A stretch of 64,000 bases of DNA from the NCBI RefSeq assembly GCF_000260115.1, contig NZ_JH651379.1, positions 62,001-126,000 on the forward strand. Reading direction: 5' to 3'. The position numbers were made by a program, and so were the translations under genes. This document shows, in pieces, positions 2,339-24,101 of the stretch (within the stretch, counting starts at the first letter, position 1; every line of letters starts with the position of its first letter). This DNA comes from Galbibacter orientalis DSM 19592 (lineage in GTDB: Bacteria; Bacteroidota; Bacteroidia; Flavobacteriales; Flavobacteriaceae). The notes beneath the pieces were generated by a model. That model was not told the origin of the DNA. It did no database searches and saw only the letters and a program-made list of their open reading frames with translations.

Positions 2339-2382
2339 CAAAGGTAGAAAAAGGTCTTTCTAAACTGTGTAACATATGTAAC
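2339..2382 (-). promoter_or_regulatory. Crp-type operator and -7 element of cydAB
   Basis: The operator at 2369-2382 reads GTAACATATGTAAC on the plus strand, one base from the regional consensus GTAAC-N4-GTTAC. On the minus strand a perfect TAnnTTTG element (TACCTTTG, 2346 to 2339) begins 22 bp after the operator edge, the same spacing as at nine other operons here. The operator centre would lie near -41.5, overlapping the place of a -33 element, as expected for class II activation by a Crp/Fnr protein. Confidence 0.72.
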
Positions 2383-2425
2383 CTTATTGTGAATTATATC
2401 GATTTGAATATTAAAATGAACTTAA

Positions 2426-2469
2426 GTAACAAAGGTTACAAACGATGCACTTTCTTTCTTATATTTTTG
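2426..2469 (+). promoter_or_regulatory. Crp-type operator and -7 element of the doxX-dsrE-soxB operon
   Basis: A perfect inverted repeat, GTAAC AAAG GTTAC, lies at 2426-2439. A TATTTTTG element matching TAnnTTTG lies at 2462-2469, 22 bp beyond the operator edge. The predicted transcription start is near 2474, so the ATG at 2445 lies upstream of it and cannot be the start used from this promoter. The divergent cydAB operator is about 44 bp away, so two separate sites serve the two directions. Confidence 0.8.
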
Positions 2470-2477
2470 TTCCAATC

Positions 2478-2840
2478 GTGAAAACTAAAACTTACATAGC
2501 AGTGCTGCTCACTTTCATCTTTATGGCAAAATTTCTTGCTATAGATGCCAATGGATTGAATGTTCTATTCAGCGGAAGCGATATCACATTTGTAAAACCT
2601 CATTGCAAGAAGAAAAATTCTGTAAAAAATTTACAGTCAACATCGGCATTTTCTCAAGTTGACAATACAACTTCACAAGTTGTTGATTTAAGCGGTTTTT
2701 GTACATCACAATTTCAGTTGGAATTATTCACTTGGGAAACAAATACCTCCAAGCCTATTGCAGTTTTCAACGAACATTTCAATTCCAACTTGAGTTATCG
2801 CTACTTGGATAATGATTCCCCACCTCCACGTTTGGCTTAA
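2478..2840 (+). CDS. Small exported or membrane-anchored protein, function unknown
   Basis: I do not recognise a named family. The open frame extends back to an ATG at 2445, but that codon touches the operator. I therefore choose the in-frame GTG at 2478, which gives 120 residues beginning MKTKTYIAVLLTFIFMAKFL, a signal peptide or membrane anchor. The transcript would then be almost leaderless. The mature part is polar, with a PHCKKK segment and a second Cys in GFCTSQF, and it ends in a proline-rich SPPPRLA tail. Short proteins with this layout often head flavobacterial metal-efflux or sulfur operons, but that is only my recollection. It is the first gene of the doxX-dsrE-soxB operon. Confidence 0.6.
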   Translation: MKTKTYIAVLLTFIFMAKFLAIDANGLNVLFSGSDITFVKPHCKKKNSVKNLQSTSAFSQVDNTTSQVVDLSGFCTSQFQLELFTWETNTSKPIAVFNEHFNSNLSYRYLDNDSPPPRLA

Positions 2841-2966
2841 ATACGATTACTTTCTTAAAATTTAATGTCGGTGCTTCTTTACAAGTTGTTTGTATGCAAG
2901 ACTTTGTGCTAAATGAATAGTTATGGCCAGACATTAAACAAAATCAATCTTTTTAACTTATTTACA

Positions 2967-3368
2967 ATGACGACAAAAATTTTAATAAGCCGTCGTTCCA
3001 TACAGCTATTGCGCGTAATGGTAAGCGGTATATTCCTCGTAGCAGGTTTTAATCATCTACTCAATGTAGAGAAAACTGCCCAGCGTATAGAGCAGGCAAG
3101 TTTTAAGGGTATCGCACATTTTTTTGGCGAACCCCAGTGGCTAATCATACTTTCGGGTATTGCAATGCTTGTGGCAGGCTTTCTATTTTTAATAGGATAT
3201 AAAACCAAATGGGCGGCAATGGTGCTGATAGCTGTCTTAATTCCCATCACATTAACAGTTCAAGTGGGACAAATAACAACACTTGGACCACTTTTTAAAA
3301 ATATAGCAATTCTCGGTGGACTTCTTTTTTTCATATTGAACGATACCAATAACCTTTTAAATAAATAA
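2967..3368 (+). CDS. DoxX family membrane protein
   Basis: This is a DoxX-type membrane protein of about 133 residues with four hydrophobic helices, including the segments VSGIFLVAGFNHLLN, WLIILSGIAMLVAGFLFLIGY and GLLFFILND. The open frame begins at 2913, but ATG 2967 (MTTKILISRRSIQ) fits the family length and puts a positively charged stretch before helix 1. DoxX proteins are related to the DoxD subunit of archaeal thiosulfate:quinone oxidoreductase, and many bacterial members act with sulfur or redox enzymes. Its place 2 bp upstream of a DsrE-like gene and a SoxB-like gene supports a role in passing electrons from sulfur compounds to quinone, though that is inference. Confidence 0.85.
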   Translation: MTTKILISRRSIQLLRVMVSGIFLVAGFNHLLNVEKTAQRIEQASFKGIAHFFGEPQWLIILSGIAMLVAGFLFLIGYKTKWAAMVLIAVLIPITLTVQVGQITTLGPLFKNIAILGGLLFFILNDTNNLLNK

Positions 3369-3370
3369 AA

Positions 3371-3793: not shown

Positions 3794-3795
3794 CT

Positions 3796-5454: not shown

Positions 5455-5455
5455 A

Positions 5456-5465: not shown

Positions 5466-6775
5466 CACTAATGGGCACTAAAATATAAATCAAGTTCTTT
5501 TAAATTCTTTGTATATCGAGGTTACGGCGTTTTTTAACACGGTGACGATTTGAATTGGGTTCAGGATTTTTGCTGTTGCAAAATCCACATCCAATGAATC
5601 AAGGTAAATACATTTTTGCTCAGTTGACCGAATTCTTGCCCCGTCGCGTGTTTGACCGCATTGTCAAAAAGCACGATGGGAACAAATATGTCCGAAGCTT
5701 TACCTGCTGGAACCAAATGCTCTGTATGGTATTTGGTCAGCTCACCTCCAGGGAGAGCATGCGGGACCTGATGCTAAGCTTGGAAGCCCATCACTCGAAA
5801 TATTATCATCTGGGTTTCGGAAAATCAATTTCAAGGCGCAACCTGGGCAAGGCCAACGAAAAACGCAGCAGCAAAATCTTTGAGGAGTTTGCCATCGTCC
5901 TGATTGAACAGGCTAGAAAGAGCTATTATCGGAACGATTTTGAGGTTAAGGTTGAAGGCAATGTGTATGCCCTGGACTCCACCACCATAGACCTGTGCTT
6001 GAACGTGTTTTGGTGGGCAGAGTTCAGAAAGGCCAAGGGCGGGATAAAGATCCATACGCTGTATGATGTAAAAACTTCCATCCCGAGTTTCCTTCACATA
6101 TCCAATGCCAGTTTACACGATGTGAACGTTTTGGACATCATCCCTTTTGAACCAGGGGGTTTTTAGGTACTCGACAAAGCCTACATAGACTTTGAACGCT
6201 TGTACAAACTCCACGGTAAAGAAGCCTTTTTCGTTACCCGGGCCAAGGACAATATGCGGTTCAAGCTGATGTACTCCAACCCGACCGATAAAGCAGCAGG
6301 CGTGAAATATGACCAGATAGGCAAACTGGAAGGATATTATTCCCGAAAGGCCTTTCCGGACAAACTGCGCCGGATAAAATATTATGATGAAGAAACACAA
6401 AAAGAGTTTGTTTTCTTGACCAACAACACCGAGCTGGACGCCTTGGAAATCGCCCTGTTGTACAAAAAACGGTGGGAGGTTGAACTGTTTTTCAAGTGGA
6501 TGAAACAACATTTAAAAATCAAATCCTTTTGGGGTACGACCCTAAATGCTGTTAAAATCCAGATTTACTGTGCGATTATTGCTTACTGTTTGGTTGCCAT
6601 CATAGCGAACACCTTGAAAGTGGAGTGGAGAATCTACGAAATTTTACAGATTCTGAGCATATCGCTACTCGATAAAACACCTGTAAGAGAGATACTTACA
6701 AGACACGATTACAAAGGTGTCAATGAACTAAAAAATAAACAACTGAAAATCAATGGGTTTTAAGCGCCCACTAAT
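5466..6775 (+). mobile_element. IS4-family insertion sequence, about 1.31 kb
   Basis: This insertion sequence is bounded by the 10-bp direct repeat GAATAAAATT. The imperfect terminal inverted repeats are near ACTAATGGGCACTAAAA on the left and ATTAGTGGGCGCTTAAAA on the right (read inwards). It carries a single transposase frame in the plus direction that ends 12 bp before the right end. A target duplication of about 10 bp fits the IS4 family. The element sits in the short gap between two genes of one operon, so it probably has polar effects on the thioredoxin gene unless an outward promoter exists. It looks GC-richer than its flanks. Confidence 0.92.
5594..6763 (+). pseudogene. IS4-family DDE transposase interrupted by one in-frame TAG
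   Basis: From ATG 5594 (MNQGKYIFAQLTEFLPRRVF) the same reading frame runs to TAA at 6761-6763, broken only by an amber TAG at 6164-6166. Both halves are in one frame, so this is a nonsense change and not a frameshift. The first half has the N-terminal IS4 domain and the first catalytic Asp in YALDSTTIDL. The second half has the second Asp in VLDKAYIDF and the Glu in the YKKRWEVELFFKWMK version of the Y-(2)-R-(3)-E-(6)-K signature. The stop falls just before VLDKAY, where related transposases often have an aromatic residue such as Tyr, so a single TAC/TAT to TAG change is plausible. The copy is probably immobile by itself. Confidence 0.88.
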
Positions 6776-7403: not shown

Positions 7404-7420
7404 ATTTCTACTGCAAAATA

Positions 7421-7457: not shown

Positions 7458-7478
7458 ATTTATATCAAAGTACACTCT

Positions 7479-9052: not shown

Positions 9053-10384
9053 TTATTGTTTAAAATCGTTAATATTCTCACTTAAATCGTACACAGTCAC
9101 ACCTTTCAATTTTTTTTGAAGGATGCTACTTCCCGCCGCACTTCTGTATCCACCTGCACAATGTACAACAATAGGTTTATCTGTAGGTATTTGTCCCGCC
9201 GTATCACGCAATTCATTCAATGGATGTGATATCGCATTGTCAAAAAACTTGCCTTCTTCCACTTCGCTGGTATTACGGATGTCCACAATGGTATAGCTGT
9301 CCGGATTTTTTTTGAAATCTGCTAAATCCAGTTTTTCAGTAGTAACCAAATCTTCGTCTGAAATCGTAATCACTTTGTTGAGCAGTTTTTCGTAGCCAAT
9401 TTTTGCCACACGGTGCAACATGGTGTCTTTGTTTTCTTTGCTATCGATAACCAGCGTAAATGTTTCTTCTGGCTTGATGATGGAACCTAGCCAAGTTTCA
9501 AATTTTGCATTTTCAGAAACTGCCTGTATATTGAAACTTCCTTTTAAATGCCCTTTTTTAAACGTTCCTTCATCACGCATATCAACGATAAGACCTTCGG
9601 AAGTTGAACTTTCAGTAAAAGGTATTTTTTCAATGGACGGTTGTAAATTATCAGCTCCGGTTTTGTTCGTATCGACATCAAATCCAAAATAATGAGGAAT
9701 AAAGGGTTGCCCATCAAGAATGGTATCCATATATTCTTTCTTGGATTGCTTTTTGAACGCCCAATTCCCCATTCGCTCATTGCCCAAAGTACTGCTGGCA
9801 GCGTCGCTTAAGTTCTTTCCGCAGAGTGAACCTGCACCGTGAGCCGGATAAACCAATGCATCATCTGGCAAGTCTGTAAATTTATTTTGAATGGTGTTAT
9901 ACATCATTTCAGCCAGTTCTTCGCGTTTGGCTTTCATATTACCCGCCTTTTCACGTAAGTCAGGACGTCCAACATCGCCTATGAATAAGGTGTCGCCAGT
10001 AAATAAAGCTGTTTCATTCCCTTCCTTAGCTATCACGGTAATACTGTCTGGTGAATGCCCTGGTGTGTTAATCGCTTTAAGGGTTACATTTCCTAACTGG
10101 ATACTATCGCCTTCATCAAATGAAGTGTGTGGATAGTCTGCACCCAACTTTTCACTATTGTATATAGTAGCTCCCGTTTTTTTATGTATTTCGAGATGTG
10201 AGCTTACAAAATCTGCGTGTGGGTGCGTTTCGATTACCGCAACAATTTCTGCATTGTTTGCTTTCGCAAAATCATAATACTGCTCGGGATTTCGTTCTGG
10301 GTCTATAACCGCCATCTTGCCATTACTCACAATAGCATAGGAATAATGTGATAGTGGCTTATATTCAAATTGTTTGATATTCAT
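9053..10384 (-). CDS. MBL-fold persulfide dioxygenase-like protein with two rhodanese domains
   Basis: This 443-residue protein has an N-terminal metallo-beta-lactamase domain (THPHADFVSSH with H54, H56 and D58; GHSPDS; TGDTLFIGDVGRPDL) of the ETHE1/persulfide dioxygenase type, then two rhodanese-like domains. The central one (about 250-345) has no Cys at the active loop (LVIDSKENKD). The last one carries the active Cys in VVHCAGGYRSAAG. Fusion proteins of this type oxidise persulfide to sulfite and exchange sulfane sulfur. A second paralogue with the same layout is at 19723-21141. The operator and -7 element lie just upstream, partly within a terminator hairpin. Confidence 0.93.
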   Translation of the reverse strand: MNIKQFEYKPLSHYSYAIVSNGKMAVIDPERNPEQYYDFAKANNAEIVAVIETHPHADFVSSHLEIHKKTGATIYNSEKLGADYPHTSFDEGDSIQLGNVTLKAINTPGHSPDSITVIAKEGNETALFTGDTLFIGDVGRPDLREKAGNMKAKREELAEMMYNTIQNKFTDLPDDALVYPAHGAGSLCGKNLSDAASSTLGNERMGNWAFKKQSKKEYMDTILDGQPFIPHYFGFDVDTNKTGADNLQPSIEKIPFTESSTSEGLIVDMRDEGTFKKGHLKGSFNIQAVSENAKFETWLGSIIKPEETFTLVIDSKENKDTMLHRVAKIGYEKLLNKVITISDEDLVTTEKLDLADFKKNPDSYTIVDIRNTSEVEEGKFFDNAISHPLNELRDTAGQIPTDKPIVVHCAGGYRSAAGSSILQKKLKGVTVYDLSENINDFKQ

Positions 10385-10400: not shown

Positions 10401-10444
10401 TAAAAATAAAAAAGGTTACAGCAAATAGCTGTAACCTTTGATAC
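10401..10444 (-). promoter_or_regulatory. Crp-type operator and -7 element of the MBL-dps operon
   Basis: The operator at 10431-10444 reads GTAAC CTTT GATAC on the plus strand, one mismatch from GTAAC-N4-GTTAC and with the same CTTT spacer as the SQR operator. On the minus strand the element TATTTTTA (10408 to 10401) begins exactly 22 bp beyond it. It is weaker than the others and overlaps a hairpin, so I hold it at moderate confidence. The spacing match is what supports it. Confidence 0.6.
10411..10439 (-). terminator. Rho-independent terminator after the DUF2892 gene, overlapping an operator
   Basis: Arms of 12 bp (AAAGGTTACAGC and GCTGTAACCTTT) flank a 5-nt loop AAATA, and a T-rich run follows on the minus strand. 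It would end the SQR-DUF2892 transcript. The right arm shares its GTAAC with the operator of the next operon, so one piece of DNA serves as terminator and operator. Confidence 0.75.
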
Positions 10445-10770: not shown

Positions 10771-12018
10771 CTATACATCTTTACCCTTTAACATTTTATT
10801 CCAGTATAGATAGGGAAGGCCGTATTTTTTCAGCATCCACAAACGCCAATGTTCTTTTGAACTATCTGAAATAAACATTTGTTTAAGTTTAGGATCAGGG
10901 GTAAAATTATTGTTATAATCAAATTCTGCCAAAACCATTTTTCCATAATCGGTAACTAATGGGCAAGATGAGTAGCCGTTGTACGATTTATTCCCCATTT
11001 TATCGTGGTTGATAAGCAAGCCAAGGTTATCCACAACCACAGGCACTTGTTTTCTGATCGCTGCTCCGGTTTTAGCAGTGGGCAATCCGGCGACATCGCC
11101 GAGACCAAAAATATTTGCGTACCTATTGTGTTGCATTGTGTGCTTATCTACATCCAACCATCCCGCTTCGTTTACCAAAGTTGATTTACTTACAAAATCT
11201 GGTGCAACACTTGGTGGTGCGGTATGTAGCATATCATAATGAATACCTGTTAAATTCCCGTCTTTTTCAATTTTCACATTCTTATGGTTATATTCTTTTT
11301 CGTGCTCTGCAAATGAATACCAAGCAATTTTATTTGCTCCGTCTATTTTCTTTAGTTGATACCCAAAACGTAAATTGATATCTTTTCTATCTACAACTTC
11401 CATTAAAGTTTTAGCAATTTCCTTTACGCCAAAAATTACTGTTCCGGCGGTGGCAAAAACAACATCAGTTTTTGAACGTGTTTTGCTTTTCGCCCAATGG
11501 CTCTCGGCCAAGTACATAATTTTTTGTGGTGCCCCACCGCATTTAATAGGCGTTGTAGGCTGTGTAAATAATGCAGTACCTCCTTTAAAATTCTTCACAA
11601 CGTCCCACGTGTGCTTTGGGTCTGTATAGTTGCTGCACACCACACCTTTATCAATTGCATCACCCAACCCGGGCACGAGACTAAAATCGTAGGCAAGACC
11701 TGATGCTACCACGAGATAATCATACGTGATATTGCCAGAATTGGCTGTACTTACCAAATTATTTTCTGGGTCGAAAGCTGTAGCTTTATCCTTAATCCAT
11801 TTAGCGCCATTAGGCATTACATCAGCCATTGGCTTTCCTGTTTTTTCATAATCATAGGTTCCAGCACCTACCAGTGTCCAAGCTGGCTGATAATAATGGG
11901 TATCGGCTGGTTCTATAATTGCGATATCTTTGGTTTTCTTTTGCGTTATAAGCTGTGATGCTGTCATTATTCCAGCGGTTCCGCCGCCAATGATAAGCAC
12001 TTGATGATGCGTTGCCAT
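10771..12018 (-). CDS. sqr: Sulfide:quinone oxidoreductase
   Basis: This 415-residue FAD enzyme oxidises sulfide to persulfide/polysulfide and reduces membrane quinone. It has the N-terminal dinucleotide fold LIIGGGTAGIMTASQL, the second motif FGLGDVAGLPTAKTGAA, and cysteines at SQR redox positions: C128 in GVVCSNYTDP, C160 in TPIKCGGAPQK, and one in YSSCPLVTDYGKM near residue 350. The C-terminal KYGLPYLYWNKMLKG stretch fits the membrane-contact helix. It is the first gene of its operon. The persulfide formed is the expected substrate of the two MBL-rhodanese proteins, and electrons would reach cytochrome bd or, through c-type cytochromes, cbb3. Confidence 0.95.
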   Translation of the reverse strand: MATHHQVLIIGGGTAGIMTASQLITQKKTKDIAIIEPADTHYYQPAWTLVGAGTYDYEKTGKPMADVMPNGAKWIKDKATAFDPENNLVSTANSGNITYDYLVVASGLAYDFSLVPGLGDAIDKGVVCSNYTDPKHTWDVVKNFKGGTALFTQPTTPIKCGGAPQKIMYLAESHWAKSKTRSKTDVVFATAGTVIFGVKEIAKTLMEVVDRKDINLRFGYQLKKIDGANKIAWYSFAEHEKEYNHKNVKIEKDGNLTGIHYDMLHTAPPSVAPDFVSKSTLVNEAGWLDVDKHTMQHNRYANIFGLGDVAGLPTAKTGAAIRKQVPVVVDNLGLLINHDKMGNKSYNGYSSCPLVTDYGKMVLAEFDYNNNFTPDPKLKQMFISDSSKEHWRLWMLKKYGLPYLYWNKMLKGKDV

Positions 12019-12040: not shown

Positions 12041-12084
12041 TAAAGATATAGGATGAACATTTGAAAGTTTGTAACCTTTGTTAC
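12041..12084 (-). promoter_or_regulatory. Crp-type operator and -7 element of sqr
   Basis: The perfect inverted repeat GTAAC CTTT GTTAC lies at 12071-12084. The -7 element TATCTTTA (12048 to 12041, minus strand) begins 22 bp beyond it. The predicted leader to the sqr ATG is about 18 nt. Confidence 0.82.
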
Positions 12085-12115: not shown

Positions 12116-12826
12116 TTATAGTGTAAACATTACAGAGGTTTCCCAAATATGGTTATTGATAACGATTTCAGTTCTCGGGATATTAATATAATGATATCCT
12201 GATGTGATAGTAATATACTCATTTTCCTGAAAGCGTAAACCGAGAAACATCCAGTTTTGGTCTAGTTTTTTGGGCTGTAGTCTTTTTTTAAAATCAAGAA
12301 ATACTTCATCGTAAGCCAAAACTGAAATTTTGGGCTTTTTAAAAACTGGTACCTCTATAATAAATCGATAACGTAATCTATTGCCATAATTACTGCCTGT
12401 AATTTCAGAGTGGTCCTCTATTGTAGCTATTTTATCTTGAAAGCGCTCTTCAAATCGTAACCTATGAGATAAGGTAAATGAATGAAATGGCTGTTTGATA
12501 AATAATTGCTGCCAAAGATTGTTTTCTTGCGTATCTATGGGTGTTGAAAACTCTGAATAAGAATAATTTTGAATAAATGTATAACCTATGCCAACTGTAA
12601 TAAATGGATTGACCTTGTGCTGAATTGAAGGCCGTAGTACAAACTGTTCCCAATCTTGAAGAAAATTTGTACGTCTAAAATTGAATTCAGATTTTACAAA
12701 CCAATTTTCATTTATAGCTGCCTTAACTGTGAAGGTGTTCCAACTGCTACTGTGCTCAAATTGCTCCTGTTGTGCTCTTGTAGTCCCTACAAAAAACAAG
12801 AGACCTATTAGTAAACTATATCTCAT
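12116..12826 (-). CDS. DUF2490 family outer-membrane protein
   Basis: This 236-residue protein has a signal peptide (MRYSLLIGLLFFVGTTRAQ) and a series of amphipathic beta strands with aromatic ends, closing in IWETSVMFTL. Strand-turn patterns such as QDWEQFVLRPSIQHKVNPFITVGIGY match DUF2490, a predicted outer-membrane beta-barrel family in Bacteroidota. Its function is unknown. It has its own operator and promoter, and is transcribed as a single gene, so it may serve as a pore for sulfur compounds in this regulon, but that is only inference from context. Confidence 0.85.
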   Translation of the reverse strand: MRYSLLIGLLFFVGTTRAQQEQFEHSSSWNTFTVKAAINENWFVKSEFNFRRTNFLQDWEQFVLRPSIQHKVNPFITVGIGYTFIQNYSYSEFSTPIDTQENNLWQQLFIKQPFHSFTLSHRLRFEERFQDKIATIEDHSEITGSNYGNRLRYRFIIEVPVFKKPKISVLAYDEVFLDFKKRLQPKKLDQNWMFLGLRFQENEYITITSGYHYINIPRTEIVINNHIWETSVMFTL

Positions 12827-12845: not shown

Positions 12846-12889
12846 CAAAAATATAGTATGCAACGAGAGAAAAAGGTAACCCCTGTTAC
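12846..12889 (-). promoter_or_regulatory. Crp-type operator and -7 element of the DUF2490 gene
   Basis: The perfect repeat GTAAC CCCT GTTAC lies at 12876-12889, with a perfect TATTTTTG element (12853 to 12846, minus strand) 22 bp beyond it. The predicted leader is about 15 nt. Confidence 0.82.
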
Positions 12890-14092: not shown

Positions 14093-15112
14093 TCATTGAT
14101 TTTCGTTCTGCTTTTTAAGTTCTTCCAGAATTTTATTGATTTCTTCTAGGCTTACTTCAGGTGCGTCATTGCTCCAACTGGTACGTTCGTGGTTCATCAA
14201 TGCAACCAATTCTTCTAGCGATAGGTCATTAATTTGGCCGATTGCGGGCATTTCGCCGTATTCTTCCCTTGCATTATAGCCATACATTATGATATTGACC
14301 ATAGAGGTTGGGTCTATGCCCTGCACGATGGCACTTCCGTCCAATGGTGGGAACGCACCGCTAACCCCTTTGCCATCGGTTTGGTGGCAACTGGCGCAAT
14401 AATTGGTATATAATTCTGCTCCGTCTAAAGCGGAAGAACCTCCAGATTCGTTAGCTCCATGTTTTTTCTGTTCCCTTTTGTATAAAAATTCTGGGCTAGG
14501 CGTTCCATCTGGAAGTTTAACCTGTTGCAGTGATTTTAAATAGGCGACCAGTGCAATGGCATCTTCGGTGGCGACTACCTTTTTGCTTTTGTCCTTGATG
14601 TATCTAGCTGGTAGATTGACTATTTTGTCCTTTTCCGTAATCTTGATAGAATCCTTAAGTTCAAATAACCAAGGGTAAGGTGCCATAACTGAATTTTCTA
14701 CTACTGCTCTTGGCTGGTAAAGGTGTGTTAAATGCCAATCTTCGCTTGGTTGTCTTTTTCCTATATTGGTCAAGTCGGGACCTGTTCTTTCTGTGCCCAT
14801 TAAGGTGGCCGTATTTACCCAGAAATTAGTCCGTTCTATACCTGCATAATCCGCTGCGACGTTGGGGCGGCTTCCCCAAACCTTATCTATTTCCACATTA
14901 CGCACCTGTTGCGTGTGGCAGGCAACACAGCCATTGCCAATATATACCATTTTACCACGCTGTTCTATTTCGGTCAAGGGTATAGAATCGGGTAAGGGTT
15001 CGTAGCTGTATTGGTTGTTTAAAGCAGGGAAAATAGCCACGAAAACAGTAAGCGTACCGAATAACAGTATCACTAATAGAAAGAGTCTTTTATGATTGCT
15101 GAATATATCCAT
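14093..15112 (-). CDS. ccoO: cbb3 oxidase CcoO fused to a second cytochrome c domain
   Basis: This 339-residue protein has one N-terminal membrane helix (residues 9-30). A CcoO domain follows with haem site C62-V-A-C65-H66 in the diagnostic GCVACHTQQVR. After a linker, a second class I cytochrome c domain has C239-A-S-C242-H243, with Met in EEYGEMPAIGQ as likely sixth ligand. Canonical systems have CcoO (one haem) and a separate dihaem CcoP. Here one chain has two haems in total and no separate ccoP follows. It starts 2 bp after ccoN. Confidence 0.93.
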   Translation of the reverse strand: MDIFSNHKRLFLLVILLFGTLTVFVAIFPALNNQYSYEPLPDSIPLTEIEQRGKMVYIGNGCVACHTQQVRNVEIDKVWGSRPNVAADYAGIERTNFWVNTATLMGTERTGPDLTNIGKRQPSEDWHLTHLYQPRAVVENSVMAPYPWLFELKDSIKITEKDKIVNLPARYIKDKSKKVVATEDAIALVAYLKSLQQVKLPDGTPSPEFLYKREQKKHGANESGGSSALDGAELYTNYCASCHQTDGKGVSGAFPPLDGSAIVQGIDPTSMVNIIMYGYNAREEYGEMPAIGQINDLSLEELVALMNHERTSWSNDAPEVSLEEINKILEELKKQNENQ

Positions 15113-15114: not shown

Positions 15115-16953
15115 CTATGTCTTTAGGTCTTCTTCAATTTCACTTTCCTTATTGTCGTTTTGCAATAACTGCAATGTCACTTCATGGATATCAACTTCTT
15201 TTTCCACTCGTACCATTTTATAGAAATTATAGGCAAATACAATATGGGATAACCACATCAATGTCCCGCCTATGGCACGCCATAGCCAATAAGGCTCCAT
15301 CAATACTACAGAGTTTATAAAAGGTTCTCCATCTCCCCAAGAAAGTCCTTTGAGCGTCCCACCTATCATAAGAGGTATTGTATAAAATTGAAGCCCTACC
15401 AAGGCCATCCAGAAGTGTGCTCCTACCCATAGTTGGGTCGGTTCCTTGCCTGTCAATCTTGGTACAATAGCATAGACGCCTGCAAACAGGGTAAATGTTA
15501 TAATCCCATACATTGTGATGTGGGAATGTGCTATGGTAAAATCAGTAAAATGCCATAATAGATTGGTAAACCTAAACGCTTCCGCAGTCCCTTGAAGCGA
15601 GCCTGTGAAATAATAAATAACCCCAACAAGGAAAAAAGGTAGAGAGTAACTACTGGCCACCTTGTTCCAAGAACCTTTGAAAGTCATCAAAAAGTTTATT
15701 GTTCCTGCCGCAACGGGTATCAACATACCCACACTACCCACAATTGCAACGGTTTGCAACCACCAAGGCAGGGAACTAAATACGAAATGGTGCGTGCCAA
15801 TTAGGGTATAGAACAAAATTTGCGTCCAAAATGCCAATATGCCCAAACTATACGAATAAATGGGTTTATTTAATTGCTGGGGAAGAAAATAATATAACAG
15901 CCCCAATACAAACATCATAAACCAAAGCCCTACGGCCTGGTGCATATAATACCCTTGTATAATGGTTTCTCCAAGTCCATCTTGCCAAAAAGGAAGATAC
16001 GATACTACAGCAATGATGTTAATGAAGATAACAGCTGCTATTATATACCAGTTTGATATGTAAATTTCTTTGGTTTTCCTAATGGCTACAGTCTTGTAAT
16101 AATTGAAAAGACTCAACATTAAACCAATAACAAACAACAACATTACCGGCCAGATATATTCGCGATATTCGCCACCACCATTGTTTATTCCTGCCATCAA
16201 CGAAATTGTACCAATGATATGGGATGCGTTTATAAAATAGAGCGAATACCATCCTAATTTTAAACTGGCGATACTCGTGTTACCCACTCGTGGTACTGTA
16301 TAATATCCCAACCCTAACATTGCAAGGGAAGACCATCCCCAAAAGACCAGATTTGTATGTACAGGACGCAAACGCCCAAAACTTAACCAACTTACTGAAT
16401 CCGCATCAGGTACAAGAAATTTAATGCCTAAATATTCACCAACACTCGTTCCCAACAACAACCAGAATATGGCAGAACCCAAAAACCAAAGCACCAGCTT
16501 TGTCAGGTTTTTATCTATTTTAGGACGCTTGGGTGGTTGGCTCTTTCTGGCAAAGAATGAATTAATCAATTCATTGGTAGGGTTCTGTATTAAACCGCGA
16601 ACATCCTTTGCGGGTTGCTTTCCAGAAAGTTCCGCATTTGACAATTTATATTCCAGTCGTCGTTTTTTCTCTGCTATTTGTTCCGGATTTAAGCTGGCCT
16701 TGTTTCTAACAATTTCTTCTGCTAAAATTTTGGCCTGTTTGAGAGTTTCCTTATTTCTAATTTGCTTTGCAATCCTATACGATTTCATCGTAAGAATGAT
16801 AATTCCTAAAATCATAGGAATAGCTATAAGTACTATGGTTATCAATACTCCTGGCGAACTCCATAATGATACTTCATCAGGGGTCTGCTCTTGAGCCAAT
16901 ACCATTGAGGGTATCATTAAAAAGAGAATGCTATAAAATATTGATTTCCTCAC
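15115..16953 (-). CDS. ccoN: cbb3-type cytochrome oxidase catalytic subunit with N-terminal extension
   Basis: This 612-residue protein is the catalytic subunit of a cbb3 oxidase. The core begins near residue 148 and carries H199 in GRLRPVHTN (low-spin haem), H338 in YYMHQAVGLW, H388-H389 in IGTHHFVF (copper site), and H476/H478 in IAHSHITMYG. The first 145 residues are extra: a signal peptide (MRKSIFYSILFLMIPSMVLAQ), a membrane helix at about 35-55, and a charged, coiled-coil-like stretch to about 140. I know of similar extensions only loosely in Bacteroidota. The extension might dock the small CPEC or Ig-like proteins encoded downstream. Confidence 0.95.
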   Translation of the reverse strand: MRKSIFYSILFLMIPSMVLAQEQTPDEVSLWSSPGVLITIVLIAIPMILGIIILTMKSYRIAKQIRNKETLKQAKILAEEIVRNKASLNPEQIAEKKRRLEYKLSNAELSGKQPAKDVRGLIQNPTNELINSFFARKSQPPKRPKIDKNLTKLVLWFLGSAIFWLLLGTSVGEYLGIKFLVPDADSVSWLSFGRLRPVHTNLVFWGWSSLAMLGLGYYTVPRVGNTSIASLKLGWYSLYFINASHIIGTISLMAGINNGGGEYREYIWPVMLLFVIGLMLSLFNYYKTVAIRKTKEIYISNWYIIAAVIFINIIAVVSYLPFWQDGLGETIIQGYYMHQAVGLWFMMFVLGLLYYFLPQQLNKPIYSYSLGILAFWTQILFYTLIGTHHFVFSSLPWWLQTVAIVGSVGMLIPVAAGTINFLMTFKGSWNKVASSYSLPFFLVGVIYYFTGSLQGTAEAFRFTNLLWHFTDFTIAHSHITMYGIITFTLFAGVYAIVPRLTGKEPTQLWVGAHFWMALVGLQFYTIPLMIGGTLKGLSWGDGEPFINSVVLMEPYWLWRAIGGTLMWLSHIVFAYNFYKMVRVEKEVDIHEVTLQLLQNDNKESEIEEDLKT

Positions 16954-17187: not shown

Positions 17188-17532
17188 TTATTTTTTAAAT
17201 GGCCAACCCATATAACCTCCCCGTAAATCATAGATTTTTGTAAACCCCATTTCCTGCAACTTTGCAGCGGCTTGTTGGCTTCGATTCCCTGAACGACAGT
17301 AGAGATAGATAGGTTCTTTTTTATCTAACTTGTTGAATTCTTCAGAAAATTTTTCCTGCTGGAAGAAATCTATATTTAAAGCCCCTTTAATTGCACCTTC
17401 TTTATATTCTTGTGCTGTACGCACATCCACCAATTGGATGTTATCATTTGAAATGGCTTCATTAAATTTTGAAGCTGCAAGGATTTTTATAGAATTGTTT
17501 TGTTGCGCTTTTGCGCCGAATAGACTGCTCAT
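17188..17532 (-). CDS. Single-domain rhodanese (sulfurtransferase)
   Basis: This 114-residue protein is one rhodanese domain with the active loop YLYCRSGNRSQQAA (catalytic Cys) and the conserved VDVRTAQEYKEGAIKGALNI. The final GGYMGWP is typical. It transfers sulfane sulfur between thiols. Residues 1-14 (MSSLFGAKAQQNNS) do not form a convincing signal peptide, so I place it in the cytoplasm. It is the first gene of the cbb3 operon, which ties sulfane sulfur handling to oxidase expression. Confidence 0.93.
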   Translation of the reverse strand: MSSLFGAKAQQNNSIKILAASKFNEAISNDNIQLVDVRTAQEYKEGAIKGALNIDFFQQEKFSEEFNKLDKKEPIYLYCRSGNRSQQAAAKLQEMGFTKIYDLRGGYMGWPFKK

Positions 17533-17576: not shown

Positions 17577-17620
17577 TAAATTTATGAGTATAGTTATAAG
17601 TTGTTAGTAACTTATGTTAC
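17577..17620 (-). promoter_or_regulatory. Crp-type operator and -7 element of the rhodanese-cbb3 operon
   Basis: The perfect repeat GTAAC TTAT GTTAC lies at 17607-17620. The element TAAATTTA (17584 to 17577, minus strand) begins 22 bp beyond it. The predicted leader is about 40 nt. This site would control eight genes down to the terminator at 12928-12950. Confidence 0.8.
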
Positions 17621-18377: not shown

Positions 18378-18421
18378 TAAAATTATTAAGATTACTTACC
18401 GAAAACAGTAACAAGCGTTAC
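18378..18421 (-). promoter_or_regulatory. Crp-type operator and -7 element of the peroxiredoxin gene, possibly shared with the divergent methyltransferase
   Basis: The perfect repeat GTAAC AAGC GTTAC lies at 18408-18421, with TAATTTTA (18385 to 18378, minus strand) 22 bp beyond it. On the plus side the equivalent place (18444-18451) reads TATATTGC, two mismatches from TAnnTTTR, so activation of the divergent methyltransferase gene is possible but weaker. Confidence 0.8.
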
Positions 18422-18474: not shown

Positions 18475-19068
18475 ATGGATTACAATACTACTTTTGACGC
18501 ATTAGGAAACGTTGATATTTATGTCATCGACCAGATATTGAAGGGTCGTTATCTAAATGGCCAATCCATTTTGGATGCTGGTTGTGGTAAAGGACGAAAT
18601 CTGAAGTGGTTTTATAAGAACGATTTTGAAATATTTGGAATAGATGCGGATTCTGAATTTTTAGCAAATGCCAAACAAAATTACCCTAAAGCAGCATCAA
18701 ACTTTAGGGTTGGCACATTGGATAAATTGCCTTACGGCGAAAAAAGTTTTGACCACATTTTATGTTGTGCTGTATTGCATTTTGCACAAAGCGAAACCCA
18801 TTTTACGGCTATGTTTTCAGAATTAATCCGCGTGCTGAAACCTGATGGAATGCTGCTCATTAGGATGGCATCAAATATAGGTTTGGATGGCAATGCCCTA
18901 AAAATCATCTTCAAAGACAATGGAAAAAAAGGCAACTACTATCTCACCCGCGAACGTATTACTGATTTAATAACTGAATTTAATATTGATTTGATAGAAC
19001 CTATTAAAACAACCAATGTTAAAGATGAACGAGCGATGACGACGCTGGTGTTTCAGAAAATGTTTTGA
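18475..19068 (+). CDS. Class I SAM-dependent methyltransferase
   Basis: This 197-residue protein has a Rossmann methyltransferase fold: motif I ILDAGCGKGRNLKWF, strand-2 IFGIDADSEF, motif II region FDHILCCAVLHFAQS and LKPDGMLLIRMAS. It is a small-molecule type, similar in style to the TehB/UbiE group. It is the only gene of this stretch that reads rightwards between the peroxiredoxin and the converging methyltransferase, and its 3' end overlaps that gene by 16 bp. The substrate is unknown; chalcogen or thiol methylation would fit the context. Confidence 0.85.
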   Translation: MDYNTTFDALGNVDIYVIDQILKGRYLNGQSILDAGCGKGRNLKWFYKNDFEIFGIDADSEFLANAKQNYPKAASNFRVGTLDKLPYGEKSFDHILCCAVLHFAQSETHFTAMFSELIRVLKPDGMLLIRMASNIGLDGNALKIIFKDNGKKGNYYLTRERITDLITEFNIDLIEPIKTTNVKDERAMTTLVFQKMF

Positions 19069-19694: not shown

Positions 19695-19722
19695 TAGTGT
19701 GTTTTCTTTGATAAATGGTATT

Positions 19723-21141
19723 TTATTTCAATGTTGATGGACAAACATAATCTGTAGTCTCAACACCAGCTTCTTTTATTGCCTTATATCCGCCTTGCAC
19801 ATCGATTAAATTATGTATGCCACGGCTTTTCAAAATAGAAGTTGCAATCATACTGCGATAGCCACCTTCACAATGGACGTAAAAGGTTTCATTTTTTGGA
19901 TATTCTGCTAGATGTTGGTTTATATTGGATAAAGATGTGTTGTTCGCGTTGAGCACGTGTTCACTTTGAAACTCGGAAGGCTTTCTTACATCAAATACTG
20001 GAACATCATAATTGCTATCATCTTCAATTTGTTTGAATTCGCTAGCGGAAATAGATGTTACCATATCGTATTCCCTTGCCGCTCTTTTCCAAGCTTCAAA
20101 ACCACCATCTAAATAGCCCAATGTATTGTCAAAGCCAACACGCGATAATCGTGTAATTGTTTCTTCAATTCGGTCTTTATCGGCAATCAACAAGATGGGT
20201 TGCTTCACATCTTTTATCAAATCGCCAACCCAAGGTGCAAAGCTTCCGTCAATACCTATAAAAATTGACCCTGGAATATGTCCTTTTGCAAAATCGTTTT
20301 GGTGCCTTACATCCAGCACCACGACTCCTGTTTCGTTGGCTACGGCTTCAAAAGCATCTGGCGCTAGCGCATTTTCGCTTTGAGCGATTACTTCGTCTAT
20401 ATTTTTATAGCCCTCTTTGTTCATTTTTACATTCATAGGGAAATAGGCTGGTGGCGGTAACAAGCCGGCAGTCACTTCCCTTACAAACTCTTCCTTGGTC
20501 ATATCGGCACGTAAGGCATAGTTCATTTCTTTTTGGTGTCCCAAAGTATCGACAGTTTCCTTCATCATATTTTTACCACAGGCTGAACCTGCACCGTGAG
20601 CCGGATATACCATTATATCATCTGCAAGCGGCATAATTTTATTACGAAGGCTATCGTATAGTGTTTCTGCAAGCTGTTCTTGGGTCATATGTGCAGCCTT
20701 TTGTGCCAGATCGGGTCGTCCTACATCACCAAGGAATAATGTATCACCTGTAAACAAGGCTTGGTCTTTTCCATCTTTGCCCTTTAACAAATAGGTGGTG
20801 CTTTCCATTGTGTGCCCCGGTGTGTGTAGTGCTATGAAAGTAAGGTCGCCTAGTTTGAATTCCTGCCCATCCTTTGCAGTAGTGGCTTTAAATGTTGGAT
20901 TTGCATTTGGGCCATAGATGATAGGTGCATCGGTTTTTTCTGAAAGGGTAACGTGACCTGAAACAAAATCAGCGTGAAAGTGGGTTTCAAAAATATATTT
21001 GATTTTTGCACCAGCCGCTTCAGCTTTGTCTATGTAAGGTTGCACTTCGCGCAATGGGTCAATAATAGCCACTTCTCCCTTGCTTTCAATATAATAGGCA
21101 CCTTGTGCCAAACACCCTGTGTAAATCTGTTCTATTTTCAT
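19723..21141 (-). CDS. Second MBL-fold persulfide dioxygenase-like protein with two rhodanese domains
   Basis: This 472-residue protein has the same layout as the one at 9053-10384. The MBL domain has THFHADFVSGH (H54, H56, D58), PGHTMEST and TGDTLFLGDVGRPDL. The central rhodanese-like domain lacks a Cys at its loop (ILLIADKDRIEE). The last rhodanese has the active Cys in YVHCEGGYRSMIA. It is likely to oxidise persulfide to sulfite or to exchange sulfane sulfur. Two such paralogues under the same operator type suggest different acceptors or conditions. The leader is longer here, about 85 nt from the predicted transcription start. Confidence 0.93.
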   Translation of the reverse strand: MKIEQIYTGCLAQGAYYIESKGEVAIIDPLREVQPYIDKAEAAGAKIKYIFETHFHADFVSGHVTLSEKTDAPIIYGPNANPTFKATTAKDGQEFKLGDLTFIALHTPGHTMESTTYLLKGKDGKDQALFTGDTLFLGDVGRPDLAQKAAHMTQEQLAETLYDSLRNKIMPLADDIMVYPAHGAGSACGKNMMKETVDTLGHQKEMNYALRADMTKEEFVREVTAGLLPPPAYFPMNVKMNKEGYKNIDEVIAQSENALAPDAFEAVANETGVVVLDVRHQNDFAKGHIPGSIFIGIDGSFAPWVGDLIKDVKQPILLIADKDRIEETITRLSRVGFDNTLGYLDGGFEAWKRAAREYDMVTSISASEFKQIEDDSNYDVPVFDVRKPSEFQSEHVLNANNTSLSNINQHLAEYPKNETFYVHCEGGYRSMIATSILKSRGIHNLIDVQGGYKAIKEAGVETTDYVCPSTLK

Positions 21142-21230
21142 AATTTTTATGTTTTAAGTTATCGCTATTTTAAATTATGCTTTCGCAATTCAACTGCATT
21201 AAACATAAACTTGAGCGGGAATTATAGATT

Positions 21231-21274
21231 TAAAATTATAAGAGATTTTTCTGTTTGTCAGTAACCATTGTTAC
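21231..21274 (-). promoter_or_regulatory. Crp-type operator and -7 element of the second MBL-rhodanese operon
   Basis: The perfect repeat GTAAC CATT GTTAC lies at 21261-21274, ending 1 bp before the stop codon of the neighbouring hydroxylase gene. TAATTTTA (21238 to 21231, minus strand) begins 22 bp beyond it. Confidence 0.8.
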
Positions 21275-21275
21275 G

Positions 21276-22151
21276 CTACTTATCTTTTTTGAAGGGATAC
21301 TTCATTTGTTTTATAAAAGTATTAGGAAAGTTAGCGTCATCTTCAAACCCCAATTCGATATCACGGCCACTGTCAGGAACGTATGCAGTCCCGAACAGGT
21401 AATCCCAAATACTCAAGGTAAGCCCAAAGTTCATTCCGTAAGGGCGTTCAGCTGGTAATGCTTTGGCGTGATGCCAAATATGCATTCGAGGATTGTTGAA
21501 TATATAACCAAATTTCCCATAGCTCCAGTCGAGATTTGCGTGATTAAGATGCCCAACAAAAACAGTAAACATATGTACAACAAAAAATTGTTCAATACCA
21601 AAACCTATCATTGCCAAAGGAATGTATTGAATGGATTTATATACGATAGTTTCCAAAAAATGAAATCGAAATTGAGCAGCAAAACCCATTTCCTTTACGC
21701 TGTGGTGCACTTTATGGAATTTCCACATCCACGGAACCCGATGCAGCATTCTGTGCACATTCCATTGCACAAAATCTGCTACTATGAACATAATAAAAAG
21801 CTGCATCCATACAGGAAAATCCTGTACTTCTACTGCAACAATATTTTTGATGCCAAATATGCCCAAGCAGTCATTAAATAATTCGACCCCTACATTTGAA
21901 AGAGCGTTGTAACCAATTAATGAAAACAGGAAAAAATTAAAGAGGATGTAAAAAGTATCGAGCCAAAACCCTTTTCTAATGACTGACTGTTTCTTACGCC
22001 AAGGAACGATGATTTCAAATAAAAACACAAGAATAGAAAGACCTAATAACCAATAAAAATAATTAGTCCAAGAGGGATTGGAAATTTCCTTAATTAGGTA
22101 ATTGAAGTAACCTGAAAAAGAACGCTCTATTATGTCAATGTATTTCCCCAT
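21276..22151 (-). CDS. Sterol desaturase / fatty acid hydroxylase superfamily membrane protein
   Basis: This 291-residue polytopic protein has the histidine clusters of the di-iron fatty acid hydroxylase superfamily: HRMLH, HKVHHS, HLNHAN and HIWHH. Membrane helices lie at about 33-50, 75-95 and 118-135. The family uses oxygen to hydroxylate or desaturate lipids. It starts 2 bp before... and downstream of the TauE gene, with which it forms an operon. A close paralogue lies at 47004-47903. Why a lipid-type oxygenase belongs to a sulfur regulon is unclear; membrane adjustment or taurine/sulfonolipid metabolism are possibilities, with no direct evidence. Confidence 0.9.
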   Translation of the reverse strand: MGKYIDIIERSFSGYFNYLIKEISNPSWTNYFYWLLGLSILVFLFEIIVPWRKKQSVIRKGFWLDTFYILFNFFLFSLIGYNALSNVGVELFNDCLGIFGIKNIVAVEVQDFPVWMQLFIMFIVADFVQWNVHRMLHRVPWMWKFHKVHHSVKEMGFAAQFRFHFLETIVYKSIQYIPLAMIGFGIEQFFVVHMFTVFVGHLNHANLDWSYGKFGYIFNNPRMHIWHHAKALPAERPYGMNFGLTLSIWDYLFGTAYVPDSGRDIELGFEDDANFPNTFIKQMKYPFKKDK

Positions 22152-22153
22152 TG

Positions 22154-22960
22154 CTATTGATCGGAAATTTCCTTATATATAATATAAATTCCCATTAGAA
22201 GTACAAACCAGCCAAATGCCTTTTTAAGTTTTTTGCCATCGATAAATTTATTAAGCCAAATACCTATAAATATACCCACTACTGATATTGAAGTAAATAG
22301 CAGCAAAAACAACCAGTCTATATCATAGTTTTGCACATCTCCTAAAAACCCTATCAACGAATTAATAGCAATTATAAAAAGAGAGGTGGCCACCGCTTTT
22401 TTCATCGGCAATTTGGCCAAAAGAACCAATGCCGGAATAATTAAAAACCCACCTCCTGCGCCAACCATTCCAGTTACAATTCCAATGAAAAAGCCCTGCA
22501 CCACCAACAAGAGGTGATTAGATTTTTTTTCAACTATTTCTGTATTAAGTTGCCGATTTCCATTGCGAATCATAGTAATGGATGCCAAAAGCATTACAAT
22601 GGCAAAAAATAGCATAATGGCCAAATTTTTTGTGACCATAAAATCATTAACTTCAAAAAATCGTTCTGGAATTACAGGGATTAAATAAGCTCTTGTTAAA
22701 TATACAGCTGTAAAAGCGGGAACGGCAAAAATAAGGGCCGTTTTAAAATCTACCTTACCCTTCATCATATTTTTAAGTGCTCCTACAAGTGAAGTTGTAC
22801 CCACTACAAATAATGAATATGCTGTAGCAATTACTGGATTAAATGATAAGGCATAAACCAAAATGGGTACAGTTAAAATTGAACCACCACCACCTATCAA
22901 TCCTAACACAATTCCAATAAATAGCGCACCTGCATAACCAAAAATTTCTATAATGTCCAT
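22154..22960 (-). CDS. TauE/SafE-family sulfite/sulfonate exporter
   Basis: This 268-residue protein has about eight membrane helices arranged in two related halves, each with a glycine-rich loop: LGLIGGGGSILTVPILVY in the first and GMVGAGGGFLIIPALVLL in the second. These repeats define the TauE/SafE family, which exports sulfite or related anions. In this regulon it is the natural outlet for sulfite formed by the persulfide dioxygenase-like enzymes. The hydroxylase gene follows by 2 bp. A second TauE/SafE copy sits in the molybdenum cofactor operon. Confidence 0.92.
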   Translation of the reverse strand: MDIIEIFGYAGALFIGIVLGLIGGGGSILTVPILVYALSFNPVIATAYSLFVVGTTSLVGALKNMMKGKVDFKTALIFAVPAFTAVYLTRAYLIPVIPERFFEVNDFMVTKNLAIMLFFAIVMLLASITMIRNGNRQLNTEIVEKKSNHLLLVVQGFFIGIVTGMVGAGGGFLIIPALVLLAKLPMKKAVATSLFIIAINSLIGFLGDVQNYDIDWLFLLLFTSISVVGIFIGIWLNKFIDGKKLKKAFGWFVLLMGIYIIYKEISDQ

Positions 22961-22984
22961 TTATCTATCTACCTAATGATAGAA

Positions 22985-23028
22985 CAAATGTAAAGGGCAT
23001 ATTAAACAAGTTTGGTAACTGATGTTAC
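22985..23028 (-). promoter_or_regulatory. Crp-type operator and -7 element of the tauE-hydroxylase operon
   Basis: The perfect repeat GTAAC TGAT GTTAC lies at 23015-23028 and overlaps the last codons of the regulator gene. A perfect TACATTTG element (22992 to 22985, minus strand) begins 22 bp beyond it. The predicted leader is about 20 nt. Confidence 0.82.
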
Positions 23029-23651
23029 AAGACTTCAATAAAACTACGGTGTAATTTTATTTTTTTATTGATTTCCATTTTTTTGAGTAGTCTGGAAACC
23101 ACCACACGGCTAGTATGTAAATCTGAAGCAATTTCCTTATGGGTTGTATAGATATGCTTACTGTTAATTAGGATAATTCTATTTTGGATATAGTTTTCCA
23201 AACGTTCATCCATATTATTGAATGCAATATTGTCAATACTTTCAAGCATTTCCATCATTCGCGCGTGATAGCTAGAAAATACAAAGTTTCGCCAAGATTT
23301 GTATTTTCGGGACCATTCTTCCATCATTCCTACGGGAACCATCAGAAGTTTAATGTCCGTTTCAGATACAGCGTGTATTTCACTTTTGGAATCTCCGATG
23401 CAGCAACTCATTGTCATTGCACAGGTGTCACCTTTTTCAATATGATAAAGCAACAATTCATCGCCATCGCCATCAGGACGCATAATTTTGATACTGCCAG
23501 ACAACAGTAACGGTATTGATTTTATATATTGACCAGGTTTCATTAAATCTTGTCCTTCCGGAACTTCCATAAAAGTCCCAACTTGGTTGATTTCTTCCAA
23601 AAGTGCAAGTTCAAATTGTGAGCCATAATATTTTTTAAGTTCTTGAATCAT
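23025..23651 (-). CDS. Crp/Fnr-family transcription regulator, probable master of the sulfur regulon
   Basis: This 208-residue protein has an N-terminal cyclic-nucleotide-binding-like beta-barrel (about 20-110), a dimer helix (about 112-140) and a C-terminal winged helix (about 150-208) with THKEIASDLHTSRVVVSRLL as the helix-turn-helix. There is no FNR-type N-terminal Cys cluster. Three cysteines, C77, C83 and C84 in GDTCAMTMSCCIG, sit in the ligand-facing part of the barrel, which could sense persulfide or another electrophile. The gene overlaps the DUF983 gene by 17 bp and lies behind an operator of the same type it is expected to bind. I infer it binds GTAAC-N4-GTTAC. Confidence 0.92.
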   Translation of the reverse strand: MIQELKKYYGSQFELALLEEINQVGTFMEVPEGQDLMKPGQYIKSIPLLLSGSIKIMRPDGDGDELLLYHIEKGDTCAMTMSCCIGDSKSEIHAVSETDIKLLMVPVGMMEEWSRKYKSWRNFVFSSYHARMMEMLESIDNIAFNNMDERLENYIQNRIILINSKHIYTTHKEIASDLHTSRVVVSRLLKKMEINKKIKLHRSFIEVL

Positions 23652-24033
23652 TGCTTACTTTTTTAGCGATTTCAGGATTGTATTTTAAAAAGAAATGTGC
23701 CCAAATGGATTTTGAAACTGCTCCTATATAGGACATTGTAATAAGCAACGCGGCGACAATACTTAGCATTATTCCTGTTGGACCGAAATCCAAACCAAAT
23801 ATGAGCGTAAGCACATAAGCTGCCACAGCCACCGCAATACCAACGCCATAAGAAACATACATAGACCCTGTATAAAAGCTTGGTTCTATATGATATTTTA
23901 ACTTACATTTTGGACAGTATTCCCTTACTTTATTCATATTTGAAATTCTATAAGGATGTCCCTCCAGAAATTCCCCTTGACGGCACTGTGGGCATTTTAA
24001 GAATAAGATGCTGTATAATTTTGTCTTTTTCAA
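23635..24033 (-). CDS. DUF983 membrane protein
   Basis: This 132-residue protein starts with TTG (24033); I see no ATG nearby. It has an N-terminal zinc-ribbon-like part with two Cys pairs (LKCPQCRQG and YCPKCKLKY), then two membrane helices (VSYGVGIAVAVAAYVLTLIF and ALLITMSYIGAVSKSI). This matches DUF983, whose members often lie near haem-copper oxidase genes. Its function is unknown. Its stop lies inside the regulator gene, so the two are translationally coupled. Confidence 0.88.
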   Translation of the reverse strand: MKKTKLYSILFLKCPQCRQGEFLEGHPYRISNMNKVREYCPKCKLKYHIEPSFYTGSMYVSYGVGIAVAVAAYVLTLIFGLDFGPTGIMLSIVAALLITMSYIGAVSKSIWAHFFLKYNPEIAKKVSNDSRT

Positions 24034-24057
24034 TTTTAAGTCTACCTAAATTTTAGG

Positions 24058-24101
24058 TAAAAATACAAGGAATTGATTTAATTTTCGGTAACAGATGTTA
24101 C
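24058..24101 (-). promoter_or_regulatory. Crp-type operator and -7 element of the DUF983-regulator operon (autoregulation)
   Basis: The perfect repeat GTAAC AGAT GTTAC lies at 24088-24101. TATTTTTA (24065 to 24058, minus strand) begins 22 bp beyond it, and the predicted leader is about 20 nt. It puts the regulator under its own presumed binding site. The stretch from 24102 to 24322 shows nothing I can identify. Confidence 0.82.

Follow-up and report, generated by a model that had tools for sequence, protein, structure and literature searches.

A probable Crp/Fnr-family activator of a sulfide-response regulon in Galbibacter orientalis

Flavobacteria are widespread marine heterotrophs, and no account of sulfide sensing in flavobacteria was found in the open-licence literature. 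A stretch of 64,000 nucleotides from Galbibacter orientalis DSM 19592, referred to here as the window, raises the question of how these organisms might respond to sulfide. A sequence-only reading had proposed that ten operons with sulfur, oxidase or redox genes at its left end share one palindromic operator, GTAAC-N4-GTTAC. Which protein acts at this operator, in which manner, and in response to which signal? We consider it probable that the Crp/Fnr-family protein encoded at 23025-23651 is a class II activator of a sulfide-response regulon and acts via GTAAC-N4-GTTAC. The operator, its spacing, its specificity within the genome, its conservation together with the regulator and the gene content were established by computation, and we conclude that activator, operator and gene set constitute a conserved regulon.

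Operators and promoter layout

A search of the whole window for GTAAC-N4-GTTAC with at most one mismatch gave 12 matches, against 0.98 expected and a maximum of 4 over 100 shuffled sequences. Ten were the operators named in the sequence-only reading, each in its place; eight of them are perfect, and those at 2369 and 10431 carry one mismatch. The remaining two matches (30739 and 34203), with one mismatch each, both lie within open reading frames (ORFs) of the mechanical list. The claim that an element TAnnTTT(A/G) begins exactly 22 bp beyond the gene-side edge of the operator was true in ten cases out of ten. When the exact composite of palindrome and spaced -7 element was searched for in the window, the eight perfect operators were recovered along with one plus-strand match at 23 bp (expected 0). 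This plus-strand match, at 23015, runs antisense within the coding end of the regulator gene and probably arises from conservation of the protein itself.

In Flavobacterium psychrophilum, for which starts have been mapped, TAnnTTTG spans -12 to -5 according to the part of the report available (PMC9723704). With a gap of 22 bp, the operator centre therefore falls at -41.5, in line with the class II position near -41.5, without a -33 box, that had been proposed. The upstream TTTG (-33) box is in fact nearly absent, with 3 matches in 94 promoters for spacers of 14-25. The arrangement corresponds to that of a class II activator, which would here replace the upstream promoter box. It also appears to correspond to the operation of NtcA, in which GTA-N8-TAC at -41.5 is held at a fixed gap from a -10 type element. 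In the portion of the NtcA study available, promoters carry GTAN8TAC at about -41.5 and are class II activator-dependent, and three spaced examples have gaps to the TAN3T box of 22 nt (two cases) and 23 nt (one case) (PMC3898017).

Across the 4.5-Mb genome, perfect palindromes numbered 14 vs 8 for a reversed control, and palindromes with the spaced -7 element numbered 10 vs 0. Nine of the composites are located in C1:61692-86101 and one at C1:2452922, while the four other perfect palindromes all lie within ORFs of at least 396 codons. The genome scan also revealed an eleventh operator, again perfect, at C1:61692-61705 (window -308, some 300 bp beyond the window's left end), with two sulfur-transport genes (YeeE/YedE-type, PF04143/DUF6691) on one side of it and a small ORF on the other. 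It faces both ways, with an exact -7 element on the plus strand and a one-mismatch element on the minus strand. The notion of one compact regulon has to be widened for the eleventh operator, for the copy at 2.45 Mb, and for some relatives in which the sites are dispersed.

We then turned to related genomes. Fifty-four loci in named genomes were retrieved by the regulator protein sequence alone, the nearest being that of Aequorivita echinoideorum (93%). In an unbiased count over these loci of every perfect 5-N-5 palindrome with gaps from 0 to 12, GTAAC-N4-GTTAC ranked at the top, with 118 copies in 48 of the 54 loci; the runners-up were A/T-only strings found in at most 31 loci. When 114 unique sites were read both ways (228 flanks), TAnnTTT(A/G) was present at 22 bp in 94 flanks, at 23 bp in 16, and at any one of the other offsets (0 to 59) in no more than 3. 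The 23-bp spacing was considered as a second promoter type and for the most part rejected, as 14 of the 17 listed cases are antisense readings at the regulator's own 3' end; 3 of the 17 face TauE or persulfide dioxygenase (PDO) genes.

Extending the scan to 198 genomes, own included, gave 258 exact composites vs 3 control matches. Sites were present in 63 of the 64 family genomes that encode a strong orthologue of the regulator and in 2 of 10 with a weak homologue score. None occurred in the 55 genomes that lack a homologue (15 from the family and 40 from the order). In ten chosen genomes inspected by eye, sites were mostly near a regulator in G020, G034, G079, G080, G088, G092 and G096 and mostly not near one in G045, G103 and G116.

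The 97 promoters with the 22-bp gap in the 54 loci face genes for TauE (26), DUF983 (14), PDO-rhodanese (14), rhodanese (8), peroxiredoxin (6), SQR (6), the regulator (5), an ORF like that at 2445-2840 (5), DUF2490 (3) and YeeE (2), with 6 facing other genes and 2 facing none. As the assignment script favoured ORFs resembling those of the window, it was rerun without this preference, and again 6 promoters faced genes unlike the window's and 2 had no gene. Of the six, two encode SulP sulfate permeases and two encode outer-membrane efflux proteins; the others are for a PF03601 membrane protein and a YgaP-like protein. The scan of this and related genomes that the sequence-only reading had called for thus bears out the composite, genes unlike the window's being rare (6/97). 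In relatives, the regulon appears to extend to the PF03601 protein, the SulP permeases and the efflux proteins (L052 14751, L086 12062, L103 12034, L059 17046 and L067 10999).

The Crp/Fnr-family regulator

The candidate regulator (23025-23651, minus strand) is a protein of 208 residues. It combines a cyclic-nucleotide-type sensor domain with a C-terminal winged helix-turn-helix, the arrangement that defines the Crp/Fnr superfamily; PF00027 is matched with 30.3 bits (cut-off 27.5) and PF13545 with 23.6 bits, under the cut-off of 27. The predicted fold matches 3DV8, NtcA and CRP at TM values of about 0.5-0.6 and a whole-chain rmsd of mostly 12-15 Å. Scores against the equivalog models for CRP (NF008732, 33 bits vs 266 required) and NtcA (TIGR03697, 37.4 bits vs 244.95) place the protein in neither group, and the operator at its loci is GTAAC-N4-GTTAC, not the TGTGA-N6-TCACA of CRP. 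In FNR, N-terminal cysteines hold a [4Fe-4S] cluster; the only cysteines of our regulator are Cys77, Cys83 and Cys84, which sets it apart from FNR. The suggestion that a Crp/Fnr-family protein acts on an operator of NtcA-like GTA-N8-TAC geometry thus agrees with the regulator's sequence, its fold and the related genomes. The operator that serves the TauE operon (23015-23028) contains the TAA stop codon of the regulator gene, and this overlap recurs in relatives, as in one where the site is at 0-based locus position 10623 and the regulator ends at 10627.

The recognition helix, SRVVVSRLL, carries Val183, invariant among 31 aligned sequences. This valine occupies the position of CRP Glu181, as does a valine in the aligned NtcA. 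The numbering of position 181 is that of the available part of PMC1274295. In a set of 160 loci with one best regulator each (54 named genomes, 6 plasmid loci and 100 chosen stretches), residue 183 is V in 118, E in 40, I in 1 and A in 1. Sites near V183 regulators have two GTAAC halves in 115 cases, a G half in 13 and are of other kinds in 7, and sites near E183 regulators have at least one GTGAC half in 7 cases vs 0, which agrees with the direction that CRP chemistry predicts. The covariation of residue 183 and operator supports binding by the regulator, with which it is consistent without being proof.

These results suggest how the regulon may operate. The 23025-23651 protein would bind GTAAC-N4-GTTAC as a dimer centred at -41.5, substitute for the missing -33 box and recruit RNA polymerase to the TAnnTTT(G/A) -7 element. 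It would thereby turn on the SQR-like enzyme, the persulfide-dioxygenase-like/rhodanese fusions, the TauE and YeeE/YedE-type transporters, the peroxiredoxin, the bd and cbb3-type oxidases, and itself. Direct DNA binding by the protein, and activation rather than repression, are the predictions that follow from sequence comparison. As for the signal, sulfide or persulfide is our best guess and the most likely one, and we infer that persulfide or other reactive sulfur species may react with Cys77 and Cys83/Cys84, which lie at the place of the cyclic-nucleotide cassette in CRP. Cys77 is conserved throughout the homologues examined (160 of 160) and Cys83 in 123 of 160. Of five sulfur families (PDO, TauE, YeeE, SQR and rhodanese), two or more occur in the retrieved stretch at 99 of the 160 loci.

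A second Crp/Fnr regulator, 48% identical, is encoded elsewhere in the genome with its own exact promoter copy (L019 4324-8692, C1:2452223-2456591). This 2.45-Mb paralogue exceeds the cut-offs of both PF00027 and PF13545, and has the helix core SRVVVSRLL. After its gene comes the promoter copy, and then two sulfur-transport genes (PF04143), TauE and an MBL-rhodanese fusion; a YgaP-like gene is present downstream as well. A sister clade with the helix ARVVVSRLL (A181, V183) and the cysteine motif CIMSFLGG was noted in 17 loci (L202, L213, L219, L231-L233, L242 and others); for this clade and for E-type sulfur loci, unbiased palindrome counts gave no clear winning operator. On Spirosoma and Pontibacter plasmids, a homologue lies upstream of a TauE or DUF81 gene, MBL-fold and YeeE genes. 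On a Persicobacter plasmid the homologue is not upstream of such genes, and a second Persicobacter record is without annotation. Of 31 plasmid records with a match, nine proteobacterial ones with annotation were examined. The homologues (about 27-32% identity) have YgaP/DUF2892 or YeeE genes directly downstream in 9/9 and MBL-fold genes nearby in 7/9. Proteobacterial plasmid homologues at L168-L170 and L285-L290 often occur with MBL-fold and SulP genes, sometimes with CydAB and peroxiredoxin genes. A scan of three of these proteobacterial plasmid loci (Paracoccus, Ruegeria and Thiothrix) for an operator gave nothing convincing.

A broader proposal, which we put forward tentatively, is that these proteins form an undescribed branch of the Crp/Fnr family in which the cAMP cassette has been turned into a persulfide cysteine sensor (C77 invariant, usually with C83 or C84). 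The branch would supply the main activator of the sulfide response in Flavobacteriaceae, and the distant homologues of Rhodobacterales, Azospirillum and Thiothrix would have an equivalent function and act through operators that have shifted. Our limited search of the open-licence literature found no report of the regulator group, of its sulfide regulon or of a sensor role for its cysteine motif. No sulfide regulator of the Crp/Fnr family from Bacteroidota turned up there either, a weak absence given that "Crp/Fnr" is not searchable as written. In the portion of a review available, the sulfide regulators are CstR, SqrR/BigR, PigS/PigP and FisR, and no Crp/Fnr protein is named (PMC9774590).

Gene content and genomic setting

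The genes faced by the operators of the cluster include those for both bd oxidase subunits, two MBL-rhodanese fusions that resemble persulfide dioxygenase, an SQR-like protein and TauE; a rhodanese with cbb3-type oxidase subunits, a peroxiredoxin, DUF2490, and DUF983 with the regulator are served as well. The earlier claim that all promoters serve sulfur, oxidase or redox genes applies to most of them, the exceptions being the DUF2490 gene and the ORF that opens the 2426 operon, which have no known sulfur role. Scores of the DsrE-like (Pfam) and of the SoxB-like, SQR-like, CcoN-like and persulfide-dioxygenase-like proteins (NCBIfam) were under the curated cut-offs, and their functions are provisional.

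At the left end, the one-mismatch operator 2369-2382 (minus strand, -7 element 2346-2339) faces cydA/cydB, with cytochrome bd oxidase subunit I at 960-2318 on the minus strand and subunit II following from 954 down past the window start. The only plus-strand promoter of the ten, with operator 2426-2439 and -7 element 2462-2469, faces an ORF of unknown function, DoxX, and the DsrE-like and SoxB-like genes. Between the SoxB-like gene and a TlpA-like gene, at 5555-6763, is a transposase gene that is broken into two ORFs (DUF4372 and DDE domains). The other eight promoters are on the minus strand. Operator 10431-10444 (one mismatch; -7 element 10408-10401) faces the persulfide-dioxygenase-like MBL-rhodanese gene at 9053-10384 and a ferritin-like gene, operator 12071-12084 (12048-12041) the SQR-like oxidoreductase gene at 10771-12018, and operator 12876-12889 (12853-12846) the DUF2490 gene at 12116-12826. 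Operator 17607-17620 (17584-17577) precedes the rhodanese gene at 17188-17532 and the genes of a cbb3-type oxidase (CcoN-like, 15115-16953; CcoO/P-like, 14093-15112). The peroxiredoxin, which has a 1-Cys-type C-terminal domain, is served by operator 18408-18421 (18385-18378), from which a degraded plus-strand -7-like element points to a methyltransferase gene (18475-19068). The second MBL-rhodanese gene (19723-21141) and a methyltransferase gene are faced by operator 21261-21274 (21238-21231), and TauE/SafE (22154-22960) with a fatty-acid hydroxylase family gene (21276-22151) by operator 23015-23028 (22992-22985). Finally, operator 24088-24101 (24065-24058) faces DUF983 (23635-24033) and the regulator gene, and its place upstream of the regulator's operon makes autoactivation likely.

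The available part of a study on Acinetobacter indicates that FisR and BigR control similar genes there, and that bd oxidase is refractory to sulfide (PMC7315123). Because cydAB rises with sulfide in Acinetobacter (PMC7315123), the oxidase genes can be read as part of a sulfide response. Sulfide detoxification and bd oxidase would then be united in one regulon.

The whole regulon is bracketed by exact 35-bp direct repeats at 24318-24352 and at C1:60566-60600, left of the window, which are the probable edges of an island of about 25.8 kb. The right copy is at the 3' end of a tRNA-Leu gene (24349-24431, minus strand), the probable integration target. By eye, the left copy adjoins a partial tRNA-like sequence, where ARAGORN found no tRNA. 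A third copy in the genome, with one mismatch, lies beside another tRNA-Leu-like sequence. The idea that the repeat is a common terminator was rejected, since a genome-wide search for its 29-bp core that allowed up to 3 mismatches gave only three copies. No integrase was found between the repeats among the ORFs scanned, which were not all ORFs, and one is present outside them at 26159-27409. When an empty site was sought within the genus, 2/7 genomes (own included) had the left-flank gene, and there was no clean empty site. The regulon block is likely a tRNA-Leu genomic island, which probably explains its compactness.

Competing explanations and known systems

Several observations weigh against activation of this gene set by the 23025-23651 protein through a cysteine sensor. 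Cys77 need not be a sulfur-specific sensor, because homologues that have fewer than two of the five sulfur families nearby carry it too (61 of 61), and the model is at its least certain in the cysteine loop (pLDDT <50 for residues 80-82). The double-cysteine model is not universal either, since the A181-V183 clade lacks C83 and C84; this clade is by the same sulfur genes in 7/17 loci and has a perfect palindrome in only 3/17. Any site at all was found in only 7 of 40 E-type loci, and 5 of the 67 V-type loci having such sites carry mostly G-half sites. The helix-operator covariation represents one independent contrast on the tree, so that the pooled p of 5.6e-7 overstates it. Among family genomes with an intermediate homologue score, 17/31 have an exact site and 14/31 have none, and of 38 homologue-bearing genomes from elsewhere in the order, only 3 have a site. 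In addition, the 2.45-Mb paralogue may bind the same sites.

The strongest alternative concerns the signal. The same regulator and operators could respond to NO, oxygen or the general redox state by means of heme, iron or thiols, in the manner of HcpR or PgRsp, and the sulfur genes would then be just one component of a redox response. The oxidases, the peroxiredoxin and the ferritin-like gene would suit such a signal, the HcpR2 consensus GTAACnnnnGTTAC in the available part of PMC1274295 is identical, and excerpts on HcpR and PgRsp of P. gingivalis report heme binding (PMC12750200, PMC12040651 and PMC6955866). On the other hand, hcp or denitrification genes were assigned to 0 of the 97 promoters in relatives (2 have no assigned gene), the residue equivalent to E181 is Val here vs Pro in HcpR2 (PMC1274295), and the genes of the regulon resemble FisR and BigR operons in what is available of PMC7315123. 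We regard this explanation as unlikely. Somewhat less likely still is that the island promoters are activated mainly or jointly by the paralogue. Its identical helix core, its own exact promoter and the two sulfur-transport genes, TauE and MBL-rhodanese gene downstream speak for it, but the island regulator lies in the cluster with an operator before its own operon, and genomes with strong orthologues have sites in 63 of 64 cases.

That the protein is a repressor relieved by sulfide, its operator blocking transcription, seems improbable. SqrR, BigR and CstR, known sulfide regulators, are repressors in the portion of the review available (PMC9774590); here, however, the fixed -41.5 position and the near-absent -33 TTTG box fit activation, and the class II promoters of NtcA have the same layout (PMC3898017, available part). 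Sites track the regulator over the 198 genomes, with 0/55 in those without a homologue, and the operator base changes with helix residue 183; we therefore find it hardly credible that a protein from a different family uses the palindrome, which would then simply lie next to the Crp gene. The dyad spacing of GTAAC-N4-GTTAC is that of CRP sites. Activation by the island regulator, with its exact operator, fixed promoter layout and gene list, is testable in a laboratory flavobacterium, and about a hundred natural class II-type promoters are at hand for work on how activation proceeds at the Bacteroidota -7 element.

How does the regulator compare with known systems? PgRsp of P. gingivalis is also a Crp/Fnr protein of Bacteroidota and was modelled on 3DV8, the best structural match here. 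Its heme binding, a trait of the heme sensors CooA and HcpR as well, and its role in oxidative stress may set it apart; the comparison is drawn from its description in the available part of PMC6955866 and not from sequence. The GTAAC-N4-GTTAC motif (HcpR2, 2005) and the 180/181 specificity rule are already known (PMC1274295). HcpR2, a Crp/Fnr protein of anaerobes (Rodionov 2005), shares the consensus GTAACnnnnGTTAC with our regulator but, in the part of that work available, has Pro at CRP position 181, where ours has Val, and a link to hcp and nitrosative stress (PMC1274295); hcp was not among the genes faced by the 97 promoters (2 without a gene). The cyanobacterial NtcA is alike in GTA-N8-TAC, a centre at about -41.5, a gap of 22 or 23 nt and Val at CRP position 181, and unlike in its nitrogen regulon and its effector 2-oxoglutarate (PMC3898017, in part). 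Persulfide sensors of the SqrR, CstR and FisR type rely on a reactive pair of cysteines between which sulfur bridges form. BigR controls yeeE-yedE-pdo2, and SqrR/BigR and CstR use dithiol persulfide chemistry; these proteins belong to other families (ArsR for SqrR/BigR, CsoR for CstR) and are repressors. FisR is, like the proposed function of our regulator, a sulfide-responsive activator of SQR, PDO and TauE genes, but it is an AAA+/sigma-54 protein with another mechanism, as far as the available part of PMC7315123 describes it.

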